Source of the DNA: an uncultured bacterium | GTDB lineage: Bacteria > Patescibacteriota > Minisyncoccia > Phycocordibacterales > PALSA-1337 | Reading direction: 5' to 3' | Assembly: GCA_903825415.1 (NCBI GenBank) | Contig: CAIKAN010000090.1 | Span: 1-44,342 of the forward strand | DNA: 44,342 bases | In this document: one piece after another, positions 26,763-36,558 of the stretch | Layout of the letters: every line of letters begins with the position of its first letter | Position numbering within the stretch: position 1 is the first letter of the stretch | Made by a program: the position numbers and the translations under genes | The notes under the pieces: generated by a model | The model's input: only the letters and a program-made list of their open reading frames with translations | The model's database searches: none | What the model was told of the DNA's origin: nothing

Positions 26763-27122
26763 GGGGATGATCGGCATAGACAGCTGACAGCGTCCGTTCG
26801 TGCGGCGCGAGCACCATTAACTCGTAAATCTGATGGAAAAACTAAATGCTAAATCAACCGTTTCTCCGTATTTCGGAGCTAAGGAATTTGCATTCGCCCT
26901 TGTTTAAGGGCCGTCATACCGAGGGGATCCTGACCTCGGTGTTGGCGTAAATATCTGGATGTAGGCGGGAGAGCTTCTCACTCTCTCGTCCGAAGCCATG
27001 AGATCGCGATCGTGCGTTTTGTGTCCTTTCCTAACACGGTCGTTAAACCTTAAAGGATTCTACCGCCGTAGAATCGTTCGGTCTGCTTCGGTTGCACGCG
27101 GGTTCGATTCCCGCCATCTCCA
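26763..27122 (+). ncRNA. ssrA: transfer-messenger RNA
   Basis: 5' GGGGATG pairs with 3' CATCTCC; T arm GCGGGTTCGATTCCCGC; GGCATAGACAGC; putative tag ORF ending ...KEFAFALV* at 26907; adjacent to smpB; CCA not encoded. Confidence 0.9.
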
Positions 27123-27163: not shown

Positions 27164-27180
27164 TGCTGGTTGATAAGGAG

Positions 27181-27324
27181 CGAGCCGCCTGCGCGGCTCG
27201 CGTCGGGAATCGAAAAGTCTGAGCATGCGGCGCGGACGATCCAGCAGGATCGCCTACTGGGTCGAAGCGAGCACCGCGCGAAGACTCTACCGAGTCTGTA
27301 AGACTCGATTCCCGCCATCTCCAC
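27181..27324 (+). repeat. tRNA-tail-mimic element T1 (direct copy of tmRNA 3' end plus conserved hairpins)
   Basis: cgattcccgccatctccac copied exactly from 27105-27123; inverted cgggaatcga at 27204; gagtc-TGTAA-gactc hairpin; cgatcc-AGCA-ggatcg hairpin. Confidence 0.75.
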
Positions 27325-27456
27325 TAGCGATGATTTTTGAGCATCTTGGAGGGTAAATACTTTTTGAGGTAGCGACAGAATAGCGGTTTCAAACCCATCT
27401 CATAGTGTGACCCCTATAGCGAACTATAACCAGCAGAACTCAACAGGTTTGCTGGT

Positions 27457-27625
27457 CGATCGAGCACGATCGCCTACTGGGTCGGCTCGCGTCGGGAATC
27501 GAAAAGGTCGACGATCCAGCAGGATCGCCACTGGGTTAATATTTTCGAGCCTCTGGAGCGAAGCGGAGGAAGGGAGAAAATACGAGACCTCTACCGAGTC
27601 TGTAAGACTCGATTCCCGCCATCTC
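27457..27625 (+). repeat. tRNA-tail-mimic element T2 (second, degraded copy)
   Basis: gtcgggaatcgaaaa, cgatcc-AGCA-ggatcg, ctaccgagtc-TGTAA-gactc, cgattcccgccatctc shared with T1. Confidence 0.72.
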
Positions 27626-27631
27626 TCAACC

Positions 27632-35158: not shown

Positions 35159-35386
35159 ATGACTACCATATCCATACCGATGCCCAAAGACCTGCTCGAC
35201 TTCGTCGATAGCATCATCCATTCTGGCGAAGCCGAGAATCGCGCTCAGGCTGTGAGAAAGGCTATACGCAAGATGCGAGAACAATCGGAGATCGATGAGA
35301 TATTCGAAGCTTCTCGCCAGATAAGACAGGGCAGGGCTTATTCTGGAGATCTTAAGGCTATCTTAGCGGCAAGGAAACATGCTTAA
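35159..35386 (+). CDS. type II antitoxin, ribbon-helix-helix/CopG-like
   Basis: TISIPMPKDLLDFVDSIIHSGEAENRAQAVRKAIRKM; overlaps toxin ORF. Confidence 0.82.
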   Translation: MTTISIPMPKDLLDFVDSIIHSGEAENRAQAVRKAIRKMREQSEIDEIFEASRQIRQGRAYSGDLKAILAARKHA

Positions 35387-35639
35387 GATCCTCTTTTCTG
35401 AGAAATTCATCTCCCAATTCGAGGCCTTAAATCACAAGATGCAGAGATTGGCGGAGAATAAGATAGATATCTTCAAGAAGGACCCTAGGCATCCTTCTCT
35501 CAAAACTCATAAGCTCAACGGAGCTTTGGCTGGGTATCTTTCATACTCGGTAGATCATCAAATGCGCATCGTCTTTGAATATGGCGAAAAAGATACGGTT
35601 CACTTTCTGAAGATAGGGAATCACGATGTTTATAGGTGA
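35379..35639 (+). CDS. type II toxin, RelE/ParE superfamily
   Basis: KKDPRHPSLKTHKLNGALAGYLSYSVDHQMRIVFEYGEKDTVHFLKIGNHDVYR. Confidence 0.88.
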   Translation: MLKILFSEKFISQFEALNHKMQRLAENKIDIFKKDPRHPSLKTHKLNGALAGYLSYSVDHQMRIVFEYGEKDTVHFLKIGNHDVYR

Positions 35640-36282: not shown

Positions 36283-36369
36283 GGAGACGTGGCTGAGTGG
36301 TCGAAAGCGGCACCGTGCTAAGGTGTTAGGGGCGAAAGTCCCTCGTGGGTTCGAATCCCACCGTCTCCG
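36283..36369 (+). tRNA. tRNA-Ser, anticodon GCU
   Basis: ggagacg/cgtctcc acceptor, loop gtGCTaa, long variable arm ggggcgaaagtccc, T arm gtggg-ttcgaat-cccac. Confidence 0.93.
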
Positions 36370-36398
36370 CATCGAATTTTGCGGAGCAAAATGAGTAA

Positions 36399-36528
36399 GG
36401 GGACGAGGAAGCGCCAAAGCGCTTCCGTGTGGGATTCGAAGCCCGATTGAGCATTTTTTATGAGCGAAGCAAAATAAAAAATCCAATCGGGATACTGGTC
36501 CTGTAAGGACCGAATCCCACCGTCTCCA
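36399..36528 (+). repeat. tRNA-tail-mimic element S1 downstream of tRNA-Ser
   Basis: cgaatcccaccgtctcc at 36511-36527 copies tRNA-Ser 36352-36368; 5' ggggacg can pair with cgtctcc; gtgggattcg pairs cgaatcccac; ggtcc-TGTAA-ggacc hairpin. Confidence 0.75.
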
Positions 36529-36558
36529 CAGCGAATGAATATGGCGAGCGAGCAAGGT

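Follow-up and report, generated by a model that had tools for sequence, protein, structure and literature searches.

Miniature hairpin elements, probably mobile, behind tRNA and tmRNA genes of Parcubacteria

We propose that the DNA behind tRNA-Ser(GCT) in the stretch analysed here (44,342 nt, hereafter the window; contig C90 of a 1.05-Mb, 99-contig genome) belongs to a family of non-coding, non-autonomous mobile elements of approximately 130–200 bp which enter the 3' ends of tRNA and tmRNA genes in the Parcubacteria. We regard this as the best overall explanation, and as a probable one. The family is real, widespread and apparently undescribed: no earlier description was found in a literature search whose scope excluded preprints and most subscription journals. 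Throughout the family the insert, approximately 130–200 bp long, consists of hairpins and encodes neither an integrase nor cargo.

The tRNA-Ser(GCT) gene is intact and lies at 36283–36369 on the forward strand, as do the parts of its element and the tmRNA gene with its element copies. Its tail, cgaatcccaccgtctcc (nt 56–72 of the gene, 36352–36368), is repeated exactly 159 nt downstream at 36511–36527, where it is followed by an A in the discriminator position and CA. Allowing up to three mismatches, this tail occurs five times in the window against 0.06 expected from shuffled sequences. The gene is separated by a spacer hairpin (P0, 36370–36398, from sequence and folding) from a structured element of approximately 130 nt which holds the second tail copy. 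In order, the element comprises GGGGACG (A5', 36399–36405), the 8-bp hairpin H1 (GGAAGCGC-CAAA-GCGCTTCC, 36407–36426, from sequence, folding and covariation), GTGGGATTCG (T5', 36429–36438), the long irregular hairpin P3 which forms the conserved core (36442–36491, arms 36442–36449 and 36484–36491, from folding and covariation), the tetranucleotide ATAC (36492–36495), an instance of the guide-like NTAC, and the hairpin P4 (GGTCC-TGTAA-GGACC, 36497–36511, from sequence and covariation), which abuts the second tail copy. Sequence and an arm-pairing check indicate that T5' is the complement of the 3' strand of the T-arm and the end of the T-loop, and that GGGGACG complements the acceptor 3' strand CGTCTCC; an earlier reading of this DNA from sequence only had suggested the latter as a pseudo-acceptor stem. 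The tail, T5', H1, P4 and GGGGACG all lie where that sequence-only reading had placed them, and the 17-nt tail duplication it described is exact. Upstream of tRNA-Ser, a small ORF (35379–35639) weakly resembles YoeB-like toxins (Pfam E 0.0009, below cut-off).

The intact tmRNA gene of the window (26763–27122, first tail copy 27105–27121) shows the same arrangement. It is followed by its P0 (27124–27164), a hairpin and T run resembling an intrinsic terminator, and by an element copy at 27173–27325, identified by a model match and by an empty allele in relatives, with H1 at 27180–27201, T5' at 27204–27212, CTAC at 27287–27290, P4 at 27292–27306 and the tail copy at 27306–27322. A decayed second copy, whose tail ends in CGATTCCCGCCATCTC, is situated farther behind the gene (27453–27628). 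The tRNA-Ser and tmRNA loci are, as had been claimed, two instances of one element, with a shared plan and the same covariance model. Both tmRNA-side copies also carry a small palindromic repeat, approximately GACGATCCAGCAGGATCGCC(T)ACTGGGT, nested in the core hairpin (27238–27267 and 27508–27537).

For the genome-wide scan which the sequence-only reading had proposed, the sequence downstream of each of the 46 tRNA matches in this genome was taken. Nine genes, namely the tmRNA and eight tRNAs, are followed at 130–181 nt by an exact tail repeat of 17–22 nt; the tail of a tenth element is degenerate, and all ten, including those behind tmRNA and tRNA-Ser, have a common plan. The sole other occurrence of TCCTGTAAGGA in the genome lies approximately 150 bp behind a tRNA. 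With a covariance model the genome yielded 15 matches; nearly every one immediately follows a tRNA or tmRNA on the same strand and bears a copy of that gene's own tail.

Of 61 relatives, 39 also carry matches to the model; the count per genome ranges from 0 to 37 and differs widely inside the genus. Even sampling of the class gave matches in 49 of 289 genomes, which is probably a lower bound since the model was built from this genome. Among the matches examined, 79 of 89 lie behind a tRNA or tmRNA on the same strand, and in 51 of these at least 17 of 18 tail bases are identical to that gene; in a second, partly overlapping set the proportion behind a tRNA or tmRNA was 85/105, several of the remaining matches being cut by contig ends. 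About 17 tRNA isotypes plus tmRNA are represented among the host genes, and tandem copies were seen. Elsewhere, the element-bearing contigs are named Parcubacteria/Paceibacterota or uncultured bacteria, and a search for viral carriers, with one P4 pattern against viral contigs, returned no exact match.

To score covariation, a structure given by hand was applied to ten loci, with the same structure slid by one to three columns as control. Standard pairs filled 90% of pair cells (30–45% in the slid controls), and two-sided changes were present in 30 of the 38 pairs. This very strong covariation, together with recurrence across the genome and its relatives, bears out the earlier claim that the element is real. 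NTAC precedes P4 in 142 of 151 copies (GTAC in 120/151), usually one nucleotide from a hairpin of 5–6 bp, and the tail begins with GA in 133/151. The sequence-only reading had described a UGUAA loop as conserved while stem and tail change to match the neighbouring RNA. What is conserved in the P4 loop is in fact GTA, with a T-A or C-G pair closing it, and the NTAC before the hairpin is the more telling feature. The match of the tail held; the P4 stem does not follow the neighbour and varies by compensatory changes, the other neighbour-matching parts being the arm complementary to the tail (36429–36438) and the acceptor-like arm (36399–36405).

Matching of these arms to the host tRNA is strong and imperfect. 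Among 51 elements whose tail copy is good, inner T-like pairs were nearly always formed, and the outer T-like and acceptor pairs mostly so, single mismatches being common. The inner match is partly trivial, since almost all tRNAs contain GANTCC. The cores that resemble each other most are often found on different tRNAs within one genome, and near-identical P3–P4 segments, accompanied by arms that match the respective tRNA, occur on tRNA-Pro and tmRNA in G050, on tRNA-Pro and tRNA-Gly in G039, and on tRNA-Ser and the tRNA at C54:7050 in G000. Despite their near-identical P3–P4, the tRNA-Pro and tmRNA copies of G050 differ in T-like arm, acceptor-like arm and tail.

That the tmRNA element is an insertion follows from three relatives of the same genus (G003, G007 and G024), whose tmRNA loci are uninterrupted and element-free. 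In these three genomes the DNA directly behind the tmRNA is homologous to what the window has past its second tail (ACTAGCGATGATTTTTGAGC...), with 88.7% identity over 71 nt in the case of G003. The host gene stays intact because the tail (about nt 57–73 plus CA) stands on both sides of the element. In G015 the tmRNA locus has a truncated element copy. The tmRNA is the one locus with a clean empty site; in the empty-site search at the tRNA-Ser locus, G016 and G006 were found to possess TrmB orthologues which are not beside tRNA-Ser. The tandem copies, and the decayed copy at 27453–27628, fit repeated insertion. Taken together, a mobile insertion family is very probable: the case for mobility draws on an empty site at one locus with support from the distribution, and the mechanism is our inference. 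Behind the tmRNA of G029 and G009 (L241/L242) there is a different insert of approximately 150 nt, which has an acceptor-like arm and a copied tail with another interior, and is a second element family.

The main alternative is a functional RNA, structured and ending like a tRNA, which would be transcribed together with the tRNA, be processed like it and act as a regulator or decoy. The very strong covariation, the tRNA-like plan of acceptor-like and T-like stems with a copied tail, and the constant position on the tRNA strand would all suit it, but the same-strand rule is forced by the position of the tail alone. The sequence-only reading had likewise implied a processed or CCA-tailed RNA, and here it fared less well, given the patchy presence within the genus, the empty alleles, the tandem and degenerate copies and the cores common to different tRNAs. 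Moreover, P0 is a terminator-like hairpin with a T run, standing ahead of the element body, in 32 of 123 copies, including the tmRNA copy of the window, and in such copies the body would therefore rarely be transcribed with the tRNA. The helices also show little of the G-U tolerance of tRNA: G-T and A-C mismatches number 26:9 in H1, P3 and P4 and 80:51 over all helices, against 61:5 in the acceptor and T stems of tRNAs from the same loci. Since selection for RNA pairing would strongly favour G-U, and the ratio here is far below that of tRNA, a DNA element is favoured; it explains more than a processed RNA, which we consider unlikely.

The element is built of hairpins (P0, the acceptor-like arm, H1, the T-like stem, P3 and P4). 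As we envisage it, an enzyme provided in trans would move or copy it in the form of folded single-stranded DNA. P4 and its NTAC foot may form the end recognised by this enzyme, and a cut at the GA of the T-loop (TTC|GA) would join the element to the tail. The matching of the arms could come from copying of the target at insertion, from exchange of cores between resident elements, or from both. Perhaps the core (P3–P4) jumps, the tail complement being copied from the new target at each insertion and the arms thus rewritten, an idea we put forward tentatively. If so, one selfish core could settle behind any tRNA without breaking the gene. We know of no bacterial element which rewrites its arms from the target at each insertion, and the match between arms and host tRNA makes it testable whether a mobile element can template part of itself on its target.

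As to the enzyme, mobilisation by HUH/RAYT chemistry is conceivable, though doubtful. A diverged Y1/HUH family related to RAYT is present (NF047646 at 1.3e-9, below its cut-off), and in the order sample elements were found in 23 of 26 genomes with RAYT and 16 of 35 without (p=0.001). At class level the difference is weak (34/49 vs 135/240, counted by hand) because RAYT is so common in the class. Several element-rich genomes had no RAYT match, and no match to the element model was found at 43 RAYT-bearing loci. TnpA-REP enzymes have a GTAG tetranucleotide before the hairpin, and in one of them a change from GTAG to GTAC moved cleavage to GA and GT (PMC8266576); an NTAC before a small hairpin and a tail starting with GA would fit this chemistry. 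A further point against is that copies behind tRNAs with a TTCAA loop retain GTAC. RAYT was rejected as a proven mobiliser and retained as a candidate, in view of palindromes of its own, no element nearby and the weak association at class level. Canonical IS200 and tyrosine integrases were rejected as partners, their presence not tracking the element. RAYT-like genes of these Parcubacteria (L243–L289) often have palindromes of their own on the flanks; these take the form RAGGTYNRACCTY and are unlike the element.

A second alternative is that the elements are scars of tRNA-integrating islands, in which a tyrosine integrase left the tail copy as attR and the interior was later deleted. An intact tRNA gene is the normal outcome of such integration (PMC8371274), tyrosine recombinases are common in the genus, and other islands here appear to use acceptor ends. 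Deletion scars, however, would not share one covarying interior across an order and at about 17 isotypes, nor would they carry arms that complement the local tail, and the integrase does not track the element: G009 has seven elements and no PF00589 match, and several element-free genomes have one. We therefore judge this origin improbable. Still less probable is an intron-like T-loop insertion, removed from the RNA, of which the first tail would be a part. In most copies the minimum-energy fold of the whole transcript does pair the arms with the first tail and the 5' half of the tRNA with the second, but a normal tRNA is already complete with the first tail, which leaves splicing unneeded, and no known intron family was matched. 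Chance tail duplications, which had been named as the more parsimonious reading should no other tRNA show the arrangement, can practically be dismissed, since several further tRNAs of the same genome and loci in relatives have it and no support for chance was found.

The mobile element combines two known strategies, those of miniature hairpin elements and of integration at tRNA ends. Like REPINs and REP sequences (RAYT, TnpA-REP), it is a short, non-coding palindromic unit in many copies, with a small perfect hairpin, a tetranucleotide foot and a Y1/HUH relative in many carriers. REPINs, however, are scattered extragenically with no known tRNA targeting, whereas the element sits at tRNA 3' ends; its NTAC is equivalent to the REP GTAG in position and not in sequence, it has a two-junction fold with arms matched to the host tRNA, and the local RAYT palindromes differ from it. 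With prophages, ICEs and tycheposon-like islands, which use tyrosine integrases, it shares insertion at the 3' end, an intact gene and a direct repeat of the tail; unlike them it is 130–200 bp long and gene-free, with one unit behind most isotypes and an internal complement of the tail. MITEs and the Rickettsia palindromic elements are likewise small, palindromic and non-autonomous, and lie in or near genes; to our knowledge they have neither 18-nt tRNA-tail repeats nor tRNA-matched arms. The acceptor-like and T-like stems ending in a tail recall tmRNA and other tRNA-like RNAs, from which the element differs in behaving as an insertion and in matching nothing in Rfam, where no family reached its gathering score (the best tmRNA score over the element was 5.7 bits against a cut-off of 47). 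It would be a frequent, undescribed occupant of tRNA loci in a large group of uncultured bacteria whose genomes are reduced, and it affects how tRNA 3' regions and attachment sites are annotated there.

Orphan copies, which have no tRNA, retain the acceptor end of the tail, and several of them come after a recurrent sequence, GTTCNAAYRTYGTCCCA. Several orphans are probably displaced copies, and in the simplest reading islands which integrated at the acceptor end would have pushed the element from its tRNA. The tRNA-Tyr copy at L123 has a counterpart 5.2 kb away which differs by one mismatch, identity starting at tail nt 67. This counterpart was first considered a unit transposed to a site without a tRNA, its ends at the junction of T-stem and acceptor; the idea was dropped because the counterpart's left flank GTTCNAAYRTYGTCCCA recurs before acceptor ends elsewhere and a gene for a phage/plasmid-type Rep lies between; a tandem pair split by an acceptor-end island explains it better. 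At L123 7179, L075 1444, L088 1449 and L320–L340, GTTCNAAYRTYGTCCCA(GA/CA) stands before an acceptor end resembling that of a tRNA (CGGCGCACA or GCGCGCACA); this sequence was observed only in this genus, in 11 of 61 relatives. It looks like the right end of islands, one of which has a Rep ORF2/G2P gene (L123, 5-kb stretch).

Tail copies which are element-free were also seen. Those behind G000 C71:4194-4265 (L036) belong to two tandem 40-bp units, CAACCAAATGGCAAATTGCCGTTC+ATTCCGGCCCCCGCAA, and that behind C13:9297-9367 (L043) is a 55-nt case; the tail copies at both loci begin at GTTC|ATTCC.
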